64,000 nt of DNA, taken from positions 64,001 through 128,000 of the forward strand of contig JAJDDQ010000078.1 in NCBI GenBank assembly GCA_029260215.1, given 5' to 3'. A program made the position numbers and the translations under genes. The notes under the pieces were generated by a model. It was not told the DNA's origin. It made no database searches and worked only from the letters and a program-made list of their open reading frames with translations. Of this stretch, positions 42,326-60,216 are shown one piece after another (the stretch's first letter is position 1; each line of letters begins with the position of its first letter). The DNA is from Phycisphaerae bacterium. Its GTDB lineage: Bacteria > Planctomycetota > Phycisphaerae > UBA1845.

Positions 42326-43522
42326 ATGGTTGTTGGTCAAGAGTCAGCACAGGTCGGTCGTTCGGCAAATTCGCGGCCGTGGTTGGTACGGGGCGCGGGC
42401 TATGGGGCACTAGCTGCTGCAGCCGGCATTCTATGGTTCGCAGTTGTTGCCGCTCCGATTCACGTACTGAATCACGCCGTGCAGCTTGGACCGATCGTGT
42501 CTGAAACCATGGGCACGGGTACGCTCGAAGCCAGGATCAAAGCGACAATCAGCCCGAAGATATCGGCCAGGGTTGAGCGAGTCCTCGTCGATCAGGGTGA
42601 CAGCGTGAAAACCGATCAAGTGCTGGTAAGGCTCGACAATGCCGAACTGCTCCAGCAAGTCGAGATTGCGAACGCTAGCATCGCGGTAGCGAAGGCCGGT
42701 CTGGATCGGTTGATTTCTGACAAAGATCGTGCATTCGCGGTGATGGATCAAGCCATGTTCGACTACGAGCGAACGAGCAAGCTGTATGAGCGCGATACGG
42801 CGGCGAGCGTTGAGATCGAGAAAGCTACCGAGGCACAGAATATCGCCAAGGCTGAGCTGGCACGTGCCGAAGCCGCTATTGTAGAGGGCCAGAAAGAGAT
42901 CATCGCACAACAGAAGACGCTTGCTTATCACCAGGCCCGCTTGGCAGATACGGAAATCGCAGCCCCATTTGATGGCCTTATCGTCCGGCGATATCGTGAT
43001 CCTGGGGATGTCGTTGTCCCTGGAAGCCCGGTGCTGACGCTGATCTCGACAAATGAGCTTTGGATATCCGCGTGGGTGGACGAGACAGAGATGGCGGGGC
43101 TTCGATCGGGACAATCGGCTCGCGTGATTTTCCGGTCGCAGCCGGAACGAACATACTCCGGCAGAGTGTCACGACTCGGCCGCGAGGCCGATCGGGAGAC
43201 TCGTGAGTTCGTTGTTGACGTTCGCGTGTTGGAGCTTCCAGAAAACTGGGCCGTCGGCCAACGAGCTGAAGTGTTCATCGAGACGGCGCACAAGGCAGAC
43301 GTCGTAGTATTACCCGCCACATACCTTCTGTTGCGTGACAAAACCCCGGGGGTTCATGTTGAAGAACAAGGGCGTGCAGCGTGGCGCCCTATCAAGACTG
43401 GCTTGCGAAGCCGGGATTTCGTCGAAGTAATCGACGGATTGCAGCCGGGTGACATGGTCCTGCTCCCTGCCGACCCCAAGACCGCGCTCCGCGAGGGAAG
43501 AAAAGTCGAGCATGCGCGATGA
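42326..43522 (+). CDS. membrane fusion protein of ABC exporter, DevB/HlyD-like
   Basis: A 398-residue periplasmic adaptor. One membrane segment (GYGALAAAAGILWFAVVAA, about 29-47) is followed by a lipoyl/biotinyl half (ISPKISARVERVLVDQGDSV), a coiled-coil hairpin (about 110-200) and the second half-motif AAPFDGLIVRRYRDPGDVV, then a beta-barrel domain. Its partners directly follow: a FtsX-fold permease and an ATPase, with a 4-base overlap at the first junction. The gene order is that of cyanobacterial devBCA, whose exporters move glycolipids. The substrate here is unknown. The ribosome site is weak. Confidence 0.9.
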   Translation: MVVGQESAQVGRSANSRPWLVRGAGYGALAAAAGILWFAVVAAPIHVLNHAVQLGPIVSETMGTGTLEARIKATISPKISARVERVLVDQGDSVKTDQVLVRLDNAELLQQVEIANASIAVAKAGLDRLISDKDRAFAVMDQAMFDYERTSKLYERDTAASVEIEKATEAQNIAKAELARAEAAIVEGQKEIIAQQKTLAYHQARLADTEIAAPFDGLIVRRYRDPGDVVVPGSPVLTLISTNELWISAWVDETEMAGLRSGQSARVIFRSQPERTYSGRVSRLGREADRETREFVVDVRVLELPENWAVGQRAEVFIETAHKADVVVLPATYLLLRDKTPGVHVEEQGRAAWRPIKTGLRSRDFVEVIDGLQPGDMVLLPADPKTALREGRKVEHAR

Positions 43523-44733
43523 ATCTTGCGATCAAAGACATTCGACACAACATCGGACGGTTCGCTCTGACGACCGTGGGTGTAGGCATGCTTCTCATGG
43601 TCGTAATGGGGATGGGCGGAATCTATCGCGGTATCATCGAGGATGCGACTCTTCTGGTCGACGAGATCGGTACCGATTTATGGATCGTACAGCGTAACAC
43701 GCGCGGGCCTTTTGCCGAGGTTTCGCGTGTTCCAGCCAATCTCGTTCATCGCGCTCTGGCGGCCCCCGGCGTCGAGTCCGCAAGGGAATTCGTCTATCAC
43801 ACGATTCAGCGCGAACGTGAGGGGAAACTGATCCGCATCGCCGTTGTTGGTTTGAGTTGGCCGACCGACAAGGGTGAGGCGTTGCCGCTTGTCGCGGGAA
43901 GGCCTCTTGCCCAGAACCATTTCGAAATGATCGCGGACGACAGACTGGGGCTGAAACTGGGCGAGCAAATCCGCTTGGGCAAAGAACGTTATACCGTTGT
44001 TGGCATTACGGAGAACATGATCGGCTCTTCCGGTGATGGTTTGGCATTTTTCACCGTATCGGATGCCCTCGACATTCAGTTCGATGTCCCCGGCGAAGCG
44101 GTGCGCCTCGAACGTCAGGCAAGATATGCACGCGGGACACTGAGCGAGCTTGGGCGAAAGCAACCGGCCTTGACTGAGACAGCGTTCCTGAAGGCTTCGG
44201 AAATTCCAGCGATCGGACCACGACAGATCAGCGCCGTCATGATCACCGTGTTGCCCGGTACGAGCGTTCGGACGGTCGCGTCAACTCTGGGTGGTTGGAG
44301 CGACGTATCGGTGTACACGACAACGGGACAGCGAGAGCTTCTTTTGAAGGGGCCGGTTGAAAAGGTACGCCGACAGATCGGGCTGTTCCGTGTGCTTCTG
44401 ACGATTATCGCCGGCATAATAATGGCGTTGATCCTTTATACGCTCACGCTGGACAAGCTCCATGACATCGCATTGCTGAAGCTCATCGGTGCCCCGAACC
44501 GAAGAATTCTCGGCATGATTCTCCAGCAGGCAGTGCTTCTCGGCGTGGTTGGTTTCGGCATCGCCTTTCTGCTTGGCTTGAAGGTTTTTCCGCGCTTCCC
44601 GCGCCGAGTAATTCTCACAAACGACGACCTCCTCCAACTTGCGGCGATCGTGCTGATGATTTCCGTTCTCTCCAGTGTGTTGGGAATCTGGAAGGCCATG
44701 CGCGTAGAGCCCAACGAAGCGCTCGCGGGATAA
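43519..44733 (+). CDS. ABC exporter permease, FtsX-fold (DevC-like)
   Basis: A 404-residue four-helix permease of the MacB/FtsX/LolC fold. The first helix (LTTVGVGMLLMVVMGMGGIY) is followed by a large periplasmic domain (about 40-280), then three helices: LLTIIAGIIMALILYTLTL, LGVVGFGIAFLLGLKVF, and one near residues 370-390 (AAIVLMISVLSSVLGIWKAM). It overlaps the adaptor gene by 4 bases and is followed after 6 bases by the ATPase gene, so it forms one exporter with them. The DevC relationship is by fold and gene order, not by measured similarity. Confidence 0.9.
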   Translation: MNLAIKDIRHNIGRFALTTVGVGMLLMVVMGMGGIYRGIIEDATLLVDEIGTDLWIVQRNTRGPFAEVSRVPANLVHRALAAPGVESAREFVYHTIQREREGKLIRIAVVGLSWPTDKGEALPLVAGRPLAQNHFEMIADDRLGLKLGEQIRLGKERYTVVGITENMIGSSGDGLAFFTVSDALDIQFDVPGEAVRLERQARYARGTLSELGRKQPALTETAFLKASEIPAIGPRQISAVMITVLPGTSVRTVASTLGGWSDVSVYTTTGQRELLLKGPVEKVRRQIGLFRVLLTIIAGIIMALILYTLTLDKLHDIALLKLIGAPNRRILGMILQQAVLLGVVGFGIAFLLGLKVFPRFPRRVILTNDDLLQLAAIVLMISVLSSVLGIWKAMRVEPNEALAG

Positions 44734-44739
44734 GAGGTG

Positions 44740-45447
44740 ATGAACAACGACTTTGCCATCGAGACTGTGAACCTCACGAAGATCTACGGTAGTGGAAACA
44801 CGGAAGTGGTCGCAATGCGCGATGCCACCGTCAAGATCCGTCGAGGTGAAGTGGTTGCACTGCTCGGCCCCAGCGGTTCGGGGAAATCCACATTCTTGAC
44901 AGCGATTGGTCTTATCAATCCGCCGTCCGCAGGTCGTATCCTCATAGGCGGGGAACTGGTCATGAATGGTCCCAAGGCGCTAAAAGATTCACGCGCTTTT
45001 CGGCGTCAACACATCGGGTTCGTGTTCCAAAAATCAAACCTTATTCCGTTTCTCTCCGCGATTGAAAACGTGCAGATCGCACTTGAGATCAACAACTGGG
45101 CCGTGGCCGCGTCGCGCCGCCGTGCCATGTCACTGCTGGAGTATCTCGGTGTCGGCGATCGTGCCGACCACTCCCCAACAAAACTTTCAGGCGGGCAGCA
45201 GCAGCGTGTTGCCGTGGCCCGTGCCATGGCCAATCGACCGAGTATCATTCTCGCTGACGAGCCCACGGCGGCTCTGGACGGCCGGAGGGGACGGCAAGTC
45301 ATGGAGCTTTTTGGAAAAGTGGCGCACGAACATGGAACCAGTGTTGTCGTCGTAACGCATGATCATCGTGCACTCGACGTGTTCGATGCGGTCTATGAGA
45401 TGGAGGACGGCATCATCCGCCGCGGTGAAACCGGCACCTTCCGTTAA
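44740..45447 (+). CDS. ABC exporter ATP-binding protein (DevA/LolD-like)
   Basis: A 235-residue ATPase that powers the neighbouring permease. Walker A is GPSGSGKST; the Q-loop is FVFQKSN; the signature is LSGGQQQRVAVARAMAN; Walker B is IILADEPTAALD, followed by the H-loop VVVTHDHRALDV. All catalytic motifs are intact. It belongs to the MacB/LolD/DevA branch. AGAGG lies just upstream of the ATG at 44740 (an in-frame GTG at 44737 is possible). No outer-membrane factor gene is adjacent. Confidence 0.95.
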   Translation: MNNDFAIETVNLTKIYGSGNTEVVAMRDATVKIRRGEVVALLGPSGSGKSTFLTAIGLINPPSAGRILIGGELVMNGPKALKDSRAFRRQHIGFVFQKSNLIPFLSAIENVQIALEINNWAVAASRRRAMSLLEYLGVGDRADHSPTKLSGGQQQRVAVARAMANRPSIILADEPTAALDGRRGRQVMELFGKVAHEHGTSVVVVTHDHRALDVFDAVYEMEDGIIRRGETGTFR

Positions 45448-45818: not shown

Positions 45819-46553
45819 TTGATTCGGGCGGTGATGATTGTTGGCTTGGCGACTCTGGCGGTGGCGGTGGATCATGCACCGCTGGACGCTCTGCTGAAGC
45901 GTCATGTTCACGGGAATCGGGTTGATTACAATAGTCTCGCGCAGGAGCGGTCGGCCATCGTCGCGTATGTTGATTCGCTGGCGAAGGTCAACACCGACAA
46001 ATTGAGTCGCGATGAACGTATGGCGATGTTCATCAATGCCTACAACGCCTGCACGCTCAACCTCGTCGTTGAAAATCTGAGCGGCGGACTCAAGAGCCTC
46101 AAGGACATCCCGGAGAACCGCCGCTGGAAGGACGAGAGATGGAACGTCGGCGGCCACGTTTACACGCTGAACGACATCGAGCATAAGGTGCTCCGTGCGG
46201 AATTCAAAGACCCGCGCGTTCACGCTTCCATCAATTGCGCGTCGGTTGGCTGCCCGCCTCTTCGTGCGGAAGCGTTCACAGCCGACCGCCTCGATGCCCA
46301 ACTCGATGAGCAATTCCGTCGCTTTGTCAACGACCGGAATCAAATACACGTGAAAGACGGCGTCTTGTATCTTTCGTCGATTTTCGACTGGTTCCGCGGC
46401 GATTTCGAAACCGAGGAGCGGACCGTTCTCGGGTGGATTAAGCGATACGCGAACGAAGACTTGCGCCGATCGATCGATCAACTCGGCTCCAAGCCTGTGA
46501 TCAAATACATTGACTGGGACTGGTCCCTGTGCATCGTCGCCGAGAGGAATTAA
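45819..46553 (+). CDS. DUF547 family exported protein
   Basis: About 244 residues. A signal-like N-terminus (IRAVMIVGLATLAVAVDHA) precedes a complete DUF547 domain: VDYNSLAQER, MAMFINAYNACTLNLV, LNDIEHKVLR, ASINCASVGCPPLRAEAF and YLSSIFDWFRGDF. The Cys-containing SINCASVGCPPL segment is the family hallmark. Function is unknown; related proteins resemble papain/transglutaminase-like folds. The TTG at 45819 is chosen for GGGGG seven bases upstream; GTG 45762 and ATG 45834 are alternatives. Its stop overlaps the next gene (TAATG), implying coupling with the kinase-like/SCP2-like protein. Confidence 0.88.
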   Translation: MIRAVMIVGLATLAVAVDHAPLDALLKRHVHGNRVDYNSLAQERSAIVAYVDSLAKVNTDKLSRDERMAMFINAYNACTLNLVVENLSGGLKSLKDIPENRRWKDERWNVGGHVYTLNDIEHKVLRAEFKDPRVHASINCASVGCPPLRAEAFTADRLDAQLDEQFRRFVNDRNQIHVKDGVLYLSSIFDWFRGDFETEERTVLGWIKRYANEDLRRSIDQLGSKPVIKYIDWDWSLCIVAERN

Positions 46554-47740
46554 TGCGACGCGACGCGGCTACGTGCTCCATCGAATCCGATCTGGACATG
46601 CTCAAGCGTGCCGGGCTTGATTCGGCTGCGAGGGTGCTTGCGCTTCAGGCGGCGGACACGGCTGCGTTGAGCCGATCCTCCGACACGTTCCCCGTTGAAT
46701 TGACCGACGACGACGGCGAAGCCCGTTGCGTTTTCGTCAAGCGGTATCGATACGATCGCTGGTCGCAGCGACTTCGACTGGCATTTCGCGGGACACTCCT
46801 CGGCGTCGGTCGGGCGCGGGCTGAGTTTGATTTTCTGAGCGAAATGCGTCGCCGAGGCGTCAGTGCGGTGTGCCCGCTTGTGACGGGTGAGCTTCGTATG
46901 CTCGGGTTCGTGCGCGGCGCGTTCCTTATCACACGCGGCGAGCCGGGTGTGGCGTCGCTGGACAACGTTGTATCGCAAGATTTCTTGACTGGCGAAAATC
47001 GCCGGCGACATCGGGTGCTGGCTATCGCGTTGGGCAAATCGATCGGAGCCATGCACCGTGCGGGCGTGCGTCATGGCGGGTTGTATTGGCGTAACATTCT
47101 GGTTCGCGATAATGGCGATTCCTTCGCGATTTCGTTCCTGGACCCGGATCGTCGCGGGAGGTTTTTCGACGGCTCTGTTTCCTTTGCGAGTGTCGAGAGC
47201 GACCTTGTTGAGTTCTTCGCATCGGCTGCCGCAGCCGGTGTTCGAGGCTACGCGCGACGATTCCTCAGCGCATACACCGACGCGTTTGGCCAATCGATGG
47301 ACGTGCGACAATTGACGCGCGCGTTGGTTCGCAAATCGCAAAGTCAGATCGCGTCCGAGTGTCACCGGTTGGCCATCGCTCAGATCATCAGCCGAATACG
47401 TCGGGGATCGAGCGGCGACAATGCCGGGTCGATTGACGCTTTTCTCGATCAATTGTCGTCGTGCGCGTCCGGTTCCGACTCGGGCGCTTGCGGGCGGCGT
47501 GTCATTCGATTTGAATTCGAGGATACCGAGCCAACTTTGGTCGTTTTTGAAAACGGGCGGTATGCTGTCTCGAAGGAATTGACGAGCCATGCGGACCTGA
47601 CTGTGTCGGTTGATCCGGCTGTCTGGCTTGCCGTCGTCAACGCCCAGCCTGACGCGTTTGACCTCGTCCGGCGGCGTGGTATTCGCATTACCGGGAGCAC
47701 GCCGTTGTTGGCCAGGATGCTTCGGGACTTGTCCACTTAA
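46553..47740 (+). CDS. lipopolysaccharide-kinase-like domain fused to SCP2-like domain
   Basis: A 395-residue cytoplasmic protein. Residues about 40-250 resemble the KdkA/WaaP/InaA LPS-kinase group: CVFVKRYRYDRW (Lys-containing strand), a basic segment, HGGLYWRNILV and SFLDPDRRGRF. The HxD aspartate of true kinases is Gly here (HGGLYWRN), so catalysis is doubtful. The C-terminal 90 residues (RFEFEDTEPTLVVFENGRYA, SVDPAVWLAVVNAQPDA, RRGIRITG) resemble an SCP2 sterol-binding domain, which binds lipid. The start at 46553 overlaps the DUF547 stop by one base. A role in envelope lipid handling is inferred; fold assignments are by motif only. Confidence 0.72.
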   Translation: MRRDAATCSIESDLDMLKRAGLDSAARVLALQAADTAALSRSSDTFPVELTDDDGEARCVFVKRYRYDRWSQRLRLAFRGTLLGVGRARAEFDFLSEMRRRGVSAVCPLVTGELRMLGFVRGAFLITRGEPGVASLDNVVSQDFLTGENRRRHRVLAIALGKSIGAMHRAGVRHGGLYWRNILVRDNGDSFAISFLDPDRRGRFFDGSVSFASVESDLVEFFASAAAAGVRGYARRFLSAYTDAFGQSMDVRQLTRALVRKSQSQIASECHRLAIAQIISRIRRGSSGDNAGSIDAFLDQLSSCASGSDSGACGRRVIRFEFEDTEPTLVVFENGRYAVSKELTSHADLTVSVDPAVWLAVVNAQPDAFDLVRRRGIRITGSTPLLARMLRDLST

Positions 47741-49045: not shown

Positions 49046-49861
49046 TTATTGCTTCAGGTACACATCGTAGCGTGCGATTTTGCCTGAGAACGACAACTGC
49101 GGATTCGGCGCGAGCGGTGCGGCGTGGCGGGCGCGCTTGACGACCACGCGCTTGCGCGCCGCCCCAAAGGCCGCCTCGAACAGCGCTTGTGCATCGTGGT
49201 CTGCCCCGACGAGTTCCCGGATCACGCGCATCTCCTTCTTGACCAATGCGGTGGCGGTCTCGTTTACGGCGAACATCGGATCGAGATAGACGACGTCGGG
49301 ATTCGCTGGAGATGCAGTGTCGCGCAGGATCGCAGCGGAATCGCCAAGTCGCAGCGAGAGGCAATCCCGGATGACGGATTCCAGCCGCGGAACCGTTGCA
49401 GCCCGCGTCAAACCGTCTCGCAATAGCTCAGCCACAATTGCGTTTCGTTCGATGGCCACCACGTTGCAGCCCAGGCATGCGAGTCGAAATGCATCACGAC
49501 CGAGGCCGGCCGTCGCATCGACCACGCTCGGGCAGTCCGCACCGATTCCGATTGCTTTGGCCAACGGTTGCCCCTTGTGACCGATGCTCCCCGCGTGCCA
49601 CACGCCGGCACTACCCAGAAAATCGACGTAAATCGCACCGGGTGCGTTGTCCGCCGTCAATCGAAGCTCTAAGCGTTCGGGTGTTTTGACGAGCGCGAGT
49701 TCGAATTGCGCGTCAACTTCTTGCAAGAAGGGCAGTTTGAGACGGTCGGCCAGCTTACGTGCTGCGACTTCCACCTTGGCGAGCGGCTCAGCCGTGACCG
49801 CCACTCGGGCCGGCGAGTTCGGTTGCGGTGTTGGATTGTCTTCGGGTGTTGGGTACGACAC
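49046..49861 (-). CDS. rsmJ: 16S rRNA (guanine1516-N2)-methyltransferase
   Basis: A 271-residue class I SAM-dependent methyltransferase of the RsmJ/YhiQ family, which methylates G1516 of 16S rRNA. VDATAGLGRDAFRLACLGCNV is the SAM-binding motif I with the family's NATAGLGxDAF form. VVAIERN forms motif II, and DVVYLDPMF the catalytic DPMF motif. The C-terminus has KRVVVKRARHAAP. The GTG at 49861 is the only plausible start after the upstream gene ends (49915). The gene runs back to back with purD, with adjacent stop codons. The spacing to parA suggests co-transcription. Confidence 0.9.
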   Translation of the reverse strand: MSYPTPEDNPTPQPNSPARVAVTAEPLAKVEVAARKLADRLKLPFLQEVDAQFELALVKTPERLELRLTADNAPGAIYVDFLGSAGVWHAGSIGHKGQPLAKAIGIGADCPSVVDATAGLGRDAFRLACLGCNVVAIERNAIVAELLRDGLTRAATVPRLESVIRDCLSLRLGDSAAILRDTASPANPDVVYLDPMFAVNETATALVKKEMRVIRELVGADHDAQALFEAAFGAARKRVVVKRARHAAPLAPNPQLSFSGKIARYDVYLKQ

Positions 49862-49914: not shown

Positions 49915-51171
49915 CTAGGCTACCTCGACGACGGAGCTGATCTCGCCTTCCTCGTTCGATTCGACCTGCGGATTGTCGCGGTCGTAGCTCCAACGCCCGT
50001 CGATGACGAAGCGATAGCGGTATCGGCCTCGGGGGAGTGCGAGCTTGGTTTCGAACACGCCGTTGTTGTCGATTCGTTGCAGCGGCGTCTGGTTCGGTGT
50101 CCAGTCGTTGAAGTCGCCAGCCACAAGCACCTCGCGGGCCGATGGACAAAGCGTGCGAAACACGATTCCGTCTTCCATCTGACGCACGCCGTAGATGGCG
50201 GCGAGTTTTTCGTCGATTCGGCGATGATTCCGGTCGTCGGCTTGTGCAGCATTCGCGGGCTGTTTCGTTTCCGGCACGGCTACCGGCGGCGGTGTCAGTG
50301 GCACGCCGTTTTTCAGAAGCGGCGTTGAGGTTGCGAGCAATCGGGCTGCATCGGCGGCGAGTCGCGACGAGTAGGATTCCACGATGGCATCGCGATCGAG
50401 CGTCAGGCGATCCTCGTGCAGAAGCTCGGTCGCGAGACTCTGGAAATCCTTAGCCCCCGTACTGCCAGGGGCGAATTCAGTGATCGGCTGACCGCAGCAT
50501 GCCCCCTCTTTCAACTTGGTGTTGAAGTTAATCACCGCATTCAGAAGTACGCCGTCAAATTGTTTGCGCAATTCCGCCAGAATCTCACGGCCCAGCTTCG
50601 TGCGCACGTCGTATTGGTTGGCCACCGCACGCACGTCGATTGTCTTTTCAAACGATTGCGCGAGCGCTCGGACACGCTTAATCTGACTTTCCAACTCCCG
50701 CAACGAGAAGTAGCCCGTCTCGACCGGGATAAGAACCTGATCGGCTGCGTACACCGCGTTGGCGAAGAGTGCGCCCGGCGACGACGGGCAGTCGATGATG
50801 CAGCAATCGTAGCGATGACCACACGTCGAGAGCGCCTCAGCCAGACTCTTGCGGCTGAACCGGCTCGCGTCCATGACGTCCATTTCCGCCAGATTGGGCG
50901 AGGACGGAGCAAGGTCGAAACCGGGAAAGACCTGCCAGGTGATTTGGCCCATGTCCACGTTTTCAGCGTTGTTTTCGGCGACGAGGCAGGCGCGAATCGT
51001 TTGCCTGACCGCGTCTACGGGTAGGGCTGTCCCAACAGCGCAATGACCCATCGGGTCCATATCCACCGCCAGCACCCGTCGGCCTTGCTTGGCCAATGTG
51101 GCGGAAAGATTGATGGCTACGGTTGTTTTACCGACGCCGCCCTTTTGACTGACTATCGCGATGGTACGCAT
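49915..51171 (-). CDS. ParA-family ATPase fused to glycogen-binding-like (CBM48/AMPK-beta) domain
   Basis: A 418-residue protein. Residues 1-270 are a ParA/Soj ATPase: KGGVGKTT (deviant Walker A, 10-17), VDMDPMGH, a CIIDCPSSPG switch and a PVETGYFSLRELES loop. A linker (about 275-335) leads to a C-terminal domain: GIVFRTLCPSAREVLVAGDF, NDWTPNQTPLQ and YRYRFVIDGRWSYDRDNP. This is a close match to the glycogen-binding/isoamylase N-terminal fold, including conserved tryptophans and the VDGxW-type loop. A ParB gene and parS-like sites were not seen nearby, so this is probably not chromosome partitioning. AAGGA precedes the ATG at 51171. A plausible role is positioning of glycogen granules or another carbohydrate-linked cargo; this is inference. 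Confidence 0.85.
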   Translation of the reverse strand: MRTIAIVSQKGGVGKTTVAINLSATLAKQGRRVLAVDMDPMGHCAVGTALPVDAVRQTIRACLVAENNAENVDMGQITWQVFPGFDLAPSSPNLAEMDVMDASRFSRKSLAEALSTCGHRYDCCIIDCPSSPGALFANAVYAADQVLIPVETGYFSLRELESQIKRVRALAQSFEKTIDVRAVANQYDVRTKLGREILAELRKQFDGVLLNAVINFNTKLKEGACCGQPITEFAPGSTGAKDFQSLATELLHEDRLTLDRDAIVESYSSRLAADAARLLATSTPLLKNGVPLTPPPVAVPETKQPANAAQADDRNHRRIDEKLAAIYGVRQMEDGIVFRTLCPSAREVLVAGDFNDWTPNQTPLQRIDNNGVFETKLALPRGRYRYRFVIDGRWSYDRDNPQVESNEEGEISSVVEVA

Positions 51172-51396
51172 GAATTCGGTCCTTCACTTGCTGACGCCCG
51201 CCGGCTGGTCCCAAGCCCGGGCAACTTCCCGAGAACCCTGTCCCCGAGGCTTCCAATCGCCGGATGTATCGACCTATCAATGCTGAAATCTTCAATGGAA
51301 GGGAGAGGGCGTCGAAACTACCGGCGAAAAGGCGTGCGTAGGGTGCGGGAAGCACATCGGACCTCTCAACGCAATCGTCCTGTCGCCCTTTCAACT

Positions 51397-51458: not shown

Positions 51459-52586
51459 CTATCGGAGGTATCCTTTCAGGCGCTTTGCGACCAGGTGCCC
51501 GCAATCGTCAAGGGTCTTGGGGTCTATGCACTGGAAATCACCGTGATGATCGTTCTGGAAATCGACGATCACCCATTCGCCGGAGCGATCGCAAACAACA
51601 AAATGCACAGCCCACGCGCGCCCACCATGCATGATGTAGTCAGCCAGAAGCACATAGTCAGCCTCGGGCGGGTTCCGCCTTAAGTGGTCTTGAAACGCGC
51701 GGGCCAGATCCCAAAGAAGTTTCTGCTCATTGCGCACAGATTCAATCGTCACGCGCAGCGGTGAGTCCACATCGCTCGCCTCACACACCCTCTTCTCGCT
51801 CAGCAGTTTCGCGAGGTGTGCCGCGTCGTGCTTTCCAACCTCGTCGTCGGCCAGCCGAACGGGGAAGACCGCCAACCTCACCTTTCTGCCGGCTTCCTTC
51901 ATGACTGCCCTTCGCCGCTCCATGGCAGCCCGCTCCGCCTTGCCGGGTGCTGGCGCATCTCTTGCGAACATCCGGGCGATTTCTCCTTGGCCGCTTTCGT
52001 CCCGCGCTGACTTGGGTATACCCAACCGCGACCGCATCCGCTCCGCGAGAAAGTGGCAACAGATCATCGGATCGCTGGGCATGTCGCGCTCGAAATCTCG
52101 ATCGGCTTGTGTCTGACGATCAACCCAAACGCTTCGCCCGCTCTTGTCCACGATGATGCCTCGAATCTCCGTCGGCCCCGTTTGGGGGTTGCCGACGAAC
52201 TCCGCATAGAGTGCGTAGTCCGTCTCGATTGGATTCTCGCGAATGAACTCGCCGAACAACTCCGTAGCTTGGTCAAACGTAGCCTCCTTCGGCAGGCGAA
52301 ATTCGGTGTTTGTCAACCTGAGGTTGGCCATGCCCGCTTTTTCCAACAGCAGCGCCATGACGCTTGCAACGTCTCTATTGAAAGACGCGTCGTCGCCCAC
52401 CGCAACGGGAAAAACAGTCAGTGATGCCTGCGTTCCTTTCGCCCGCATGACTTCGAATCGCTTCAATTGTTCGGGCGGCACTTGCTTGTTGCCTCCGCTC
52501 GTCTGACACCCCGGCACCAATGCGCCGACAGCCAGTCCCACCGTCAACACCGCAAACGTCGTGTGGTTGAGCTCTTGAATTCTCAT
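51459..52586 (-). CDS. lipoprotein with internal duplication, TetR-regulated
   Basis: A 375-residue putative lipoprotein: TFAVLTVGLAVGALVPGC carries a lipobox-like end. Two homologous halves are visible. LTVFPVAVGDD (about 56) and LAVFPVRLADD (about 238) start them, both with a long helix after. ETDYALYAEFVGNPQTG-x-IRGIIVDKSGRSVWVD and EADYVLLADYIMHGGRA-x-VHFVVCDRSGEWVIVD close them. It has no recognised family. AAGGAG precedes ATG 52586. The 18-bp operator shared with the two upstream genes overlaps its promoter. It is the last gene of the TetR cluster. Confidence 0.75.
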   Translation of the reverse strand: MRIQELNHTTFAVLTVGLAVGALVPGCQTSGGNKQVPPEQLKRFEVMRAKGTQASLTVFPVAVGDDASFNRDVASVMALLLEKAGMANLRLTNTEFRLPKEATFDQATELFGEFIRENPIETDYALYAEFVGNPQTGPTEIRGIIVDKSGRSVWVDRQTQADRDFERDMPSDPMICCHFLAERMRSRLGIPKSARDESGQGEIARMFARDAPAPGKAERAAMERRRAVMKEAGRKVRLAVFPVRLADDEVGKHDAAHLAKLLSEKRVCEASDVDSPLRVTIESVRNEQKLLWDLARAFQDHLRRNPPEADYVLLADYIMHGGRAWAVHFVVCDRSGEWVIVDFQNDHHGDFQCIDPKTLDDCGHLVAKRLKGYLR

Positions 52587-56923: not shown

Positions 56924-57811
56924 TTACAATTCCTCCGCCACGATTCGTATCACCTCGATCGGAGACTCCACGATCACCGACACGGGCCTGAACACAAGAT
57001 CATCGGCAAAAAATTCCACCTCGTACGCCCCCGGCGGCCTGTCAAACGAAAATCGCCCGTCGGTATCCGTCGAAGCCACCGCGATCGGATCACCGAAACC
57101 GGCATCAGGATCATTCGTTTCATCGTCATCGTTCAGTCGAACGCGAAATCGCGTACGCAGCAGCACACCGACGCCCTCAACCCCCGAACCGTCAGCCAGC
57201 GTGACAAAACCCGTAAGCGTTTCATTGTCAGCAATGCCCGGAGGAGCTTGGCCACCAAGACCATCTTCCACCCCCTCCACACGCCACGTCCCGTCGATGC
57301 CGTCCACCAGACCCGACGCAACAACGTCATCTTCGACCGCAGTACCCTGCGCGAGCTTGACCAACGCGACGCCTTCAGCAGCCTCCCAATTCACGATCGT
57401 AAACGTTTCCAGCGCTTGCACGCGGCACGCAGGCACGTTCAACAACTCACCCGCCACGATCGGCGTCGGCGAAACATCCTCACCCTCATCCAACCCGACG
57501 GGCAAATCGTCATTCACACGTGCATACAGAAACACACGCACATCAATCGCATCCGGGCAACCGTTCCCTGTGAATTCAAAGAACTCCCCGCGAAACGTTG
57601 CCCCCGGTGCCAGCAGCGGCGTCTGCTCATACACCCCAGCCTCATCTCCGTTCGCGCGCATCGAAAGAGTCGCGTAGAAATCCAACGAGAAATTCGTGAA
57701 TGCGAAGCGCGTTTCGAGCGGAAGCCCGAGAAACTCAGGCCCTTCCATGCCGCACGAACCAGCCATCAAAACCAACACCATTGCCGCGAAAAAGTGACGG
57801 ATGCATTGCAC
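56924..57811 (-). CDS. lipoprotein with Cna-B-like C-terminal domain
   Basis: A 295-residue lipoprotein. The GTG start at 57811 overlaps the TAG of the kinase gene and GGAG lies 8 bases upstream. The N-terminus (CIRHFFAAMVLVLMAGSCG) is a signal ending in a lipobox. The C-terminal 70 residues (TGFVTLADGSGVEGVGVLLR, TDTDGRFSFDRPPGAYEVEF) match Cna-B/carboxypeptidase-regulatory-like beta sandwiches, which serve as stalk or attachment domains. The stop codon adjoins the metzincin start. No enzymatic site is seen. Confidence 0.75.
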   Translation of the reverse strand: MQCIRHFFAAMVLVLMAGSCGMEGPEFLGLPLETRFAFTNFSLDFYATLSMRANGDEAGVYEQTPLLAPGATFRGEFFEFTGNGCPDAIDVRVFLYARVNDDLPVGLDEGEDVSPTPIVAGELLNVPACRVQALETFTIVNWEAAEGVALVKLAQGTAVEDDVVASGLVDGIDGTWRVEGVEDGLGGQAPPGIADNETLTGFVTLADGSGVEGVGVLLRTRFRVRLNDDDETNDPDAGFGDPIAVASTDTDGRFSFDRPPGAYEVEFFADDLVFRPVSVIVESPIEVIRIVAEEL

Positions 57812-60216
57812 TATTTCATCTCCATCGCCAAACGAACACCTGAATACTGATTGGCTGCGTCCGCTGTGATAAACAGACGCTGAGTCGATCGACACGACTT
57901 GGGGGAACCGTAAAATGCACCGCCGCGCGCCACGTAAAGACCGCAATCCTTCATCTTCGGTTCCCCGTTGACACTATCTTCGTAACACGAATCGCACAAC
58001 TCCCACAAGCCACCGTGCATGTCGAAAAGCCCATACCAGTTCGGCATGCGCTCAGCCACACGCTGCATGGACATGACCCCCTCGATATTCGCGAAGTACG
58101 GTGCATACTCCGTGCCGTCGCCGTAGCAGTATCGCCCCGCGTTTCCCCCGCGACAGGCGTATTCCCACTCAGGCTCGGTAAGCAGGCGGTACCGGCGCGC
58201 CGGCATCACACCCGCCGCCCGTTCATTCAACCAATCACAAAAACCCCTCGCCGCCGTCAGGCCCATGAAGGCGGCTGCGCGTCGTTCAAGCTCATCCGCC
58301 GGAATGTTTGTGATTTCCGCGCGAATGCGTTTCCTGCCGACCTCATTCTCGCCGTAGGCTTTCTCTTGCGCGGAAAACGCACTCTCCGCATGAATCGAAT
58401 CCAGGTACTTCGCCAACGCCCCGTACGTGACCTCCGTCGTCGCCACATACAAATCGCCGATCGACACTTTGTATTCAGCCAAACGCTCGTCATCGTCTTG
58501 TAACTTGTCCGAAGGATCAGCCCCCCGCCGGTACGATAAGCAATCCGGAATGCGCACAAACGACAATCCGCTGACTTCATCTTCAAACGCCAACTCGCTC
58601 CGACTCGTTCCCGGAGACGCGCCGCAGCGCTGAGCAGCCCACCGCGCCGCCGCCGACACACCAGGCCAACGCTCGTTCTCAGCCGCACGCACGGACAACT
58701 CCGCAAACGACGCGCGAAACGGTGCCAACACGCCTCCCTCGCCAACCAATTGGCCGATCATGCAAAACGCCACGTATTTCTGCCGGTCGGTTCCGTGCGA
58801 AGCCTTTTCGGTCAGCGTCGGCACCAAACGACTCGGGTCGTCCCAGACCGTGTCGATCGCATCCAACCATTGCCCACCCGTCCAGAGCAAGCCGCCATCT
58901 ACGCCCTCAAAGAAAGCCTCGGGCAACACCACGATCGCAGCCCGGGCGCCGACTTTTCGAAACAGCGGCGACGGCGAAAAGAGATGCTCGCGACACCTTT
59001 CCTTGAGTGGAGTCAGCACACCCTCGTGCGCAGATTCGAACTCCTTGATCGCGACGAGCGGATCGTGGTCGAACATGGACAAAATCGTTCGTGCGAGGGA
59101 TTCATTTGCCCGGGACTGCTTCTCCCGAGCAATATAGAGCGCCGGCGCGAGGATCAAGGCTGCAATGACCAAACCGATCTGAAACGGATTGCGCTGGACG
59201 AATTTCTTGACACGATAAGACTTTCGCCCCGCCAGCGGGCTGACCGGGCGCTTCTCCGCAAGCGCCAGCAAGTCCGCCTGAATCCCGGAAACCGAGTCGT
59301 AGCGTTTTTCAGGATCGGGGGCGAGACACTTCGTCAAAACCGCCGCAAACTCATCGCCGATCACGCCATGCAAGCGCTGCTGCACAACGGATACTTCACG
59401 ATCCACCAGCGTGCGATAGACGTTCAATCGTTCATTCAGTGTGCCCGCAGCCGCCAGACTCTTGTCATTCTCCGTACTGCTACGCGGCGCTTCGCCGACA
59501 AGAATCGCATAAATCGTCGCACCCAGCGCATAAACGTCCCAACGCACGTCCGGATGAACCTGCTCGCCCGGTGATGCCAGTTGAGCCTGCTCCGGAGCCA
59601 TAAAATAAAGCGTACCCAACGAAGCCGCCGATTCCGTGAAAACACGCGACTGCCCGAAATCGACCACGCGAACGTTGGTCTGTTCGTCCACCAGAACGTT
59701 GCCCGGCTTCAAGTCGCAGTGGATCAGGCCTTTGGCGTGAACGTAGAACAGCGCCTCGCAAATCTGCCGCATGAAGCGACGGGCCAATTGCTCGTCCACG
59801 TGCTCCCCGGTCACGAATTTTTCGAGCGATCCGCCCTCAATGAGGTCCATCGCGTAGCACGGCGGCTCGCTTTCAAGGTCTGTGTCCAGAAGTGTCACGA
59901 TGTGCGGGTGGCGATCCAGGCGCGTCAGACGCTCCACCTCACGCTGCAAAAATATCCAGTCCAACCCCCCACGCTGGATGAAGACCTTGATGGCCACTTC
60001 CTTCCGCGTGCGCAGTTGCGTTGCCCGCCACACCTGCCCATAAGCCCCCTCGCCGAGCAGATCCGCCAGGGCGTAACCCGGTATCTTCGGTGCGTAGTCG
60101 CTCTGACGAACATCCTGCAAAGAAATATCGACAGCCGCCCCGAACGACTCCGGCGACTGCTGGAGCGTCTGAGCATCGGCTGGGGGAACGTTGGGTTTTT
60201 GAGTCGGGTCACTCAA
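57811..60216 (-). CDS. Ser/Thr kinase fused to sulfatase-modifying-factor-like domain
   Basis: An 801-residue membrane protein. Kinase domain (about 45-320): LGEGAYGQVWRA, VAIKVF, IHCDLKPGNVLV, VVDFGQSRV, GTLYFMAPEQAQ and DVYALGATIYAI. The catalytic loop is HCD instead of HRD, so it is a non-RD kinase, though Asp and Asn are kept. A single membrane helix (FQIGLVIAALILAPALYIA, about 345-363) leads to an outer region. The last 240 residues form an FGE/sulfatase-modifying-factor-like domain (RLLTEPEWEYACRGGNAG, FDMHGGLWELCDSCYEDS, VARGGAFYGS). Not all FGE copper-site cysteines are evident, so oxidation of sulfatases is not claimed. TTG start; lipoprotein genes follow. Confidence 0.9.
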   Translation of the reverse strand: MSDPTQKPNVPPADAQTLQQSPESFGAAVDISLQDVRQSDYAPKIPGYALADLLGEGAYGQVWRATQLRTRKEVAIKVFIQRGGLDWIFLQREVERLTRLDRHPHIVTLLDTDLESEPPCYAMDLIEGGSLEKFVTGEHVDEQLARRFMRQICEALFYVHAKGLIHCDLKPGNVLVDEQTNVRVVDFGQSRVFTESAASLGTLYFMAPEQAQLASPGEQVHPDVRWDVYALGATIYAILVGEAPRSSTENDKSLAAAGTLNERLNVYRTLVDREVSVVQQRLHGVIGDEFAAVLTKCLAPDPEKRYDSVSGIQADLLALAEKRPVSPLAGRKSYRVKKFVQRNPFQIGLVIAALILAPALYIAREKQSRANESLARTILSMFDHDPLVAIKEFESAHEGVLTPLKERCREHLFSPSPLFRKVGARAAIVVLPEAFFEGVDGGLLWTGGQWLDAIDTVWDDPSRLVPTLTEKASHGTDRQKYVAFCMIGQLVGEGGVLAPFRASFAELSVRAAENERWPGVSAAARWAAQRCGASPGTSRSELAFEDEVSGLSFVRIPDCLSYRRGADPSDKLQDDDERLAEYKVSIGDLYVATTEVTYGALAKYLDSIHAESAFSAQEKAYGENEVGRKRIRAEITNIPADELERRAAAFMGLTAARGFCDWLNERAAGVMPARRYRLLTEPEWEYACRGGNAGRYCYGDGTEYAPYFANIEGVMSMQRVAERMPNWYGLFDMHGGLWELCDSCYEDSVNGEPKMKDCGLYVARGGAFYGSPKSCRSTQRLFITADAANQYSGVRLAMEMK

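Follow-up and report, generated by a model that had tools for sequence, protein, structure and literature searches.

Why should an ATPase of a family that positions cargo inside bacterial cells carry a glycogen-binding type of domain on the same polypeptide? The cargoes placed by ParA-family ATPases include DNA, carboxysomes, chemoreceptors and flagella, and the question is raised by a gene for 418 amino acids at 49915..51171 on the minus strand of the 64 kb stretch of Phycisphaerae DNA analyzed here (the window). An earlier note on this DNA had claimed that one reading frame joins a ParA ATPase to an AMPK-beta/CBM48 domain, and had offered a glycogen granule as cargo. Indeed, an open reading frame with an ATG start lies at exactly 49915-51171, a Shine-Dalgarno-like GAAGGA can be read 8 nt 5′ of that ATG (51180..51185, minus strand), and both domains were identified by Pfam, with sequence matches to PDB entries in addition. 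A fusion arising by chance or through assembly was ruled out, because 98 distinct homologues align with the protein end to end.

Two conserved domains on one chain

Residues 1-252 (50416..51171, minus strand) form a Soj/ParA-type ATPase domain. The Pfam family AAA_31 covers residues 1-179 (E=2.9e-38), and in Foldseek searches the best solved-structure matches of the predicted model were Soj/ParA proteins (target TM 0.87-0.89), the domain sharing 31% identity with 8ray and 32-33% with Thermus Soj. The hallmarks of the ParA/MinD family are present, namely a deviant Walker A with its signature lysine (QKGGVGKTT, residues 9-17, 51121..51147, minus strand) and the Walker A′ and Walker B aspartates; K10, K15, D37, D39 and D127 are 100% conserved in the 98 fusion sequences. 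The DNA-contact side of Soj is similarly kept, with R190, R195 and K219 at 100%, K192 at 97% and K221 at 92% of the same sequences when aligned with the Soj region. By analogy with Soj, the fusion protein would thus be expected to bind both ATP and DNA.

This nearness to Soj in structure and sequence is what would favor a chromosome or plasmid partition ParA with an incidental extra domain, an explanation that we nevertheless consider very unlikely. No ParB gene occurs among the neighbors of the fusion, a scan of the 64 kb window that tolerated up to three mismatches found no parS-like site, and fusion-bearing genomes encode a separate canonical ParA, as do relatives without the fusion. Furthermore, none of the best 5000 plasmid records spans 80% of the fusion protein and the best 80 viral loci match the ParA part only, leaving no full-length match among either set. 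The earlier note had argued against DNA partition from the absence of an adjacent ParB; that absence proved correct, and the genomic context supports the argument.

The neighbors in the window are a methyltransferase gene, purD, a lipoprotein-like reading frame and a gene for an FG-GAP protein. The first of these, on the 3′ side of the fusion, encodes a PF04445 SAM-dependent methyltransferase (RsmJ-like; 49046..49840, minus strand; E=1.8e-68) and is also found downstream of the fusion in three close relatives (L009, L010 and L093); it is probably functionally unconnected with the fusion. The lipoprotein-like frame upstream (51459-52586, minus strand, 375 aa) has no Pfam match and seemingly contains one domain in two copies (FPVAVGDDASF... 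and FPVRLADDEVG...). Other arrangements were noticed elsewhere in the window. For example, a Kdo/WaaP-type kinase and an SCP-2 sterol-transfer-like domain share one frame at 46529-47740 on the plus strand (PF06293 E=1.4e-19, PF02036 E=4.6e-6), and an 801-aa frame at 57811-60216 on the minus strand appears by eye to join a serine/threonine protein kinase to a following formylglycine-generating-enzyme-like domain. Probably an efflux or export system is encoded by three neighboring frames at 42326-45447 (plus strand), which by eye look like genes for a membrane-fusion protein and for the permease and ATPase of an ABC transporter.

The C-terminal part of the fusion is an AMPK-beta/CBM48-type E-set domain at residues 328-417 (49921..50190, minus strand). 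Two Pfam families scored above their curated cut-offs here, AMPK1_CBM over residues 345-417 (E=4.1e-15, 56.2 bits against 26.8) and CBM_48 over residues 328-391 (E=4.2e-9, 37.1 bits against 22.4), and the last 101 amino acids alone match AMPK beta-1 structures (4yef, E=2.1e-11). The earlier note had placed the domain at 335-418; it is present, with a start that the CBM_48 match moves to approximately residue 328. In an AlphaFold2 model built with 51 sequences (mean pLDDT 83.0, pTM 0.61), an ATPase that is for the most part confidently modelled is followed by a long helix at residues 238-281, a disordered linker at residues 282-311 (50239..50328, minus strand; pLDDT <50) and a very confident beta domain at residues 328-417 (pLDDT mostly 94-97).

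AMPK beta-1 contacts beta-cyclodextrin via W100, K126, W133, L146 and T148, and mutating any one of these lowers its glycogen binding (PMC2642990). The equivalents of the first three, W357 (50101..50103, minus strand), R387 and W394 (49990..49992, minus strand), are invariant in the 98 homologues. Position 408, corresponding to L146, is F or Y in 96 of the 98; position 410, the next listed contact equivalent, is mostly E; and position 412, corresponding to the Asn that follows T148, is N in 93. Measured by columns at least 95% conserved among the 98 fusions, the CBM (24/90) is as strongly conserved as the ATPase (64/252), with 2/75 such columns in the linker region. The window copy keeps W357, R387 and W394 and has E408 and S412 in place of the family's aromatic residue and Asn, both of which (as Y and N) are retained by its nearest relative, L009. 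Given these contact residues, the family appears to be one of sugar-binding proteins; for the window copy itself, binding may be weak or absent.

How the two domains are joined bears on whether the CBM would be a tether or a sensor. If a sensor, glucan binding would switch the state of the ATPase, and the carbon reserve would thereby control the positioning or division of something else. There is precedent in the glycogen-binding domain of AMPK-beta, an allosteric glycogen sensor through which glycogen inhibits AMPK (PMC2642990). It would also be in keeping with a linker stretch that varies from 13 to 196 aa across the family while both domains stay conserved, and with the lack of glycogen genes among the neighbors of the fusion. 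However, the model contains no confident ATPase-CBM contact (pTM 0.61), and a long disordered linker fits tethering better than direct allostery; we regard a sensor as unlikely, if worth keeping in mind.

Distribution of the fusion in Phycisphaerae

The fusion was sought in 150 Phycisphaerae genomes and approximately 330 genomes from other classes of Planctomycetota, many of which are metagenome-assembled. It was present, as a rule in single copy, in 93 of the 150, comprising 84 genomes with one full-length match and nine recognized by reading open reading frames, one of them frameshifted. A CBM-less orthologue was found in three genomes, and the remaining 54 had no match better than canonical ParA; these 54 belong mainly to four families (f4 7, f11 18, f17 23, f19 3), and in a metagenome-assembled genome absence could reflect incompleteness. 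The window's own genome encodes the fusion once, alongside several ParA-like genes without a CBM. In none of the approximately 330 genomes from other classes did a match extend beyond the ParA part. End-to-end homologues were also recovered at no fewer than 80 loci of a GTDB contig collection, nearly all labelled Phycisphaerae or Planctomycetota. Two carry other labels, 'Alphaproteobacteria' (L015) and 'Actinomycetes' (L070); since both fall within the Planctomycetota part of the fusion tree, they appear to be mislabelled bins. These observations confirm a real, old, class-conserved gene rather than a one-off. Separately, an origin in a mobile element was dismissed on the plasmid and viral matches described above.

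Certain matches (families f18, f9 and parts of f24) had seemed to cover ParA only, and a loss of the CBM in all of them proved wrong, for the CBM was seen in eight when their reading frames were inspected and, in a ninth (G144), has been put out of frame by an apparent frameshift. Truly CBM-less, within the stretch examined, are six orthologues (L143, L146, L147, L149, L150 and L152), three from the 150-genome sample and three more. Their existence indicates that the ATPase is able to act without the CBM. All six keep a disordered-looking tail, which in several includes a short basic motif (RAAEL..R) of helix-like character.

A probable FlhG-like partner gene

Apart from one gene, no general conserved neighborhood accompanies the fusion. 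In many relatives, a gene on the same strand lies directly 3′ of it, with a gap of -4 to some 300 nt and a product of approximately 390-580 aa (for example, L084:9330-10829, L027:6046-7344 and L048:9219-10652). This product matches no Pfam family. It consists of an N-terminal predicted helix with a conserved motif, (L/I)SxI(S/A)HLFLS or variants, followed by an FlhG-like domain, whose best Foldseek match is 4rz2 (E=6.3e-9), and then by a further alpha/beta domain. Because KGG occurs in none of 14 aligned sequences and no GK[T/S] is found where the FlhG-like domain begins, the partner probably lacks ATPase activity.

A profile of the partner matched in 24 of the 150 Phycisphaerae genomes, in all 24 cases directly downstream of the fusion and on the same strand, and in none of the fusion-less genomes of that sample, as compared by eye. 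When mapped onto a tree of 73 fusions, the partner label required 3 changes, versus a mean of 15.4 after shuffling, and it appeared in both halves of the midpoint-rooted tree, with a partner-less clade alongside in either case. With the root placed in this way, the simplest reading suggests an ancestral fusion-partner operon and later losses, one of them in the lineage of the window. Within the window's family, no partner gene is present beside the fusion, and the window's own genome has no match elsewhere. For nucleoid-riding ParA ATPases, and more broadly in the ParA/MinD family, partner proteins act through their N-terminus (PMC10241942), and from this we conjecture that the FlhG-like protein acts on the fusion ATPase through its N-terminal helix.

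Glucan as a candidate cargo, and known systems

Whether the cargo might be glycogen was examined through gene neighbors and gene content. No conserved glycogen-gene neighbor was found across the homologue loci. In counts tallied by hand from presence tables for the 150 class genomes, GlgB-like genes occurred in 39/96 genomes with a ParA orthologue (three of them CBM-less) versus 31/54 without, and alpha-glucan phosphorylase in 85/96 versus 52/54. Such co-occurrence has little power as a test, since alpha-glucan enzymes are near-universal in Phycisphaerae. GlgB-like genes are patchy in the class and one is present in the window's own genome; none of 60 relatives had a GlgA (TIGR02095) match above the cut-off; and four f18 genomes lack GH13 genes and possess GH57 genes. 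Taken together, the gene content suggests that nearly all the sampled genomes probably handle alpha-glucan. We had considered the absence of GlgB from fusion-bearing genomes as a refutation of any glucan link and dropped it, GH57 being present in those checked.

The reading that we tentatively favor is a Phycisphaerae-specific ParA positioning ATPase tied to alpha-glucan by its linker-borne CBM, with a glucan particle or complex as cargo; both glucan binding and the identity of the cargo are conjectures from sequence. An ATP-bound dimer of the fusion would bind the nucleoid via a basic surface of the kind typical of Soj, its CBM would dock on alpha-1,4-glucan, either in a glycogen-like particle or in a complex that handles glucan, and the ATPase cycle would space or partition the bound particle. 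Where the operon has been retained, the FlhG-like protein without a Walker A would serve as partner via its N-terminal helix. Against a glucan cargo stand the failure of GlgB-like and phosphorylase genes to track the fusion, the lack of a glycogen-gene neighbor, the six CBM-less orthologues, and E408 and S412 in the window copy, and the glycogen granule put forward in the earlier note is not supported as such. Moreover, in well-studied ParA systems the cargo is bound by a partner and not by the ATPase. A more specific version, in which a dedicated Phycisphaerae system with a built-in glucan module and an ancestral FlhG-like pseudo-ATPase partner both positions and partitions glycogen granules, is possible and, in our estimation, doubtful.

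Some of the same evidence would suit an E-set domain that binds a cargo protein rather than sugar, with W, R and N retained for the fold or for that interface. The presence of the fusion is not linked to that of glucan-enzyme genes, the fold of the window copy persists with two of its sugar contacts gone, and some orthologues have no CBM. On the other hand, nearly all 98 homologues retain the exact set of sugar contacts, and the profile match is to AMPK1_CBM, a family that recognizes glycogen. We judge protein binding to be a possibility of some substance, on balance rather improbable.

The family of each domain and the positioning role of ParA proteins were known. In the open-access literature, a search for ParA together with CBM48, AMPK1_CBM or glycogen returned nothing relevant, with most subscription papers outside its scope; no report of a ParA ATPase tied to storage polysaccharide came to light there, nor any mention of the two domains combined, of their conservation across the class or of the FlhG-like partner. 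Domain databases may already list the ParA-CBM architecture without comment. The conservation of the fusion, together with its probable partner, suggests an undescribed system for placing or sensing storage sugar, and a class-wide, normally single-copy gene makes it testable whether bacteria have active means of placing, apportioning or sensing the carbon they store. Orthologues lacking the CBM or the partner offer a natural experiment, and a candidate partner gene is now in hand. If glucan placement proves true, the positioning of glycogen granules would be a new class of cargo for ParA ATPases.

Among known systems, the fusion resembles Soj/ParA of ParABS (Thermus Soj, 1wcv/2bek; H. pylori Soj, 6iub) in its full ATPase domain, deviant Walker A and DNA-binding side, with about 30% identity and a near-identical fold, and it differs in the C-terminal CBM48 on a linker and in the missing ParB/parS at the locus. 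BcsQ, the ParA-like cellulose-secretion ATPase, is a ParA-type protein linked to a polysaccharide and is similar in fold; however, the fusion reaches only 100.3 bits against the curated TIGR03371 cut-off of 157.85, BcsQ has no CBM, and no bcs genes were seen at the locus. FlhG/FleN resembles the partner protein in fold (4rz2), whereas the partner lacks a Walker A at the start of that domain, carries an extra N-terminal helix and C-terminal domain, and was not seen in a flagellar locus. In contrast to the AMPK beta subunit and other CBM48 proteins, where the domain belongs to a kinase complex or a GH13 enzyme, here it sits on a ParA ATPase and, in the window copy, is without two contacts; the domain profile and the W, K/R and W sugar contacts are common to both. 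McdA (6non and 6nop by Foldseek) shares the ParA fold. Unlike McdA, the fusion holds a cargo-type domain within the ATPase itself, its partner is FlhG-like and confined to some lineages, and the neighbors read include no McdB-type or microcompartment gene. McdA/McdB nevertheless offers a model for the fusion, in which an ATPase rides the nucleoid and the product of a neighboring partner gene acts on that ATPase through its own N-terminus (PMC10241942).
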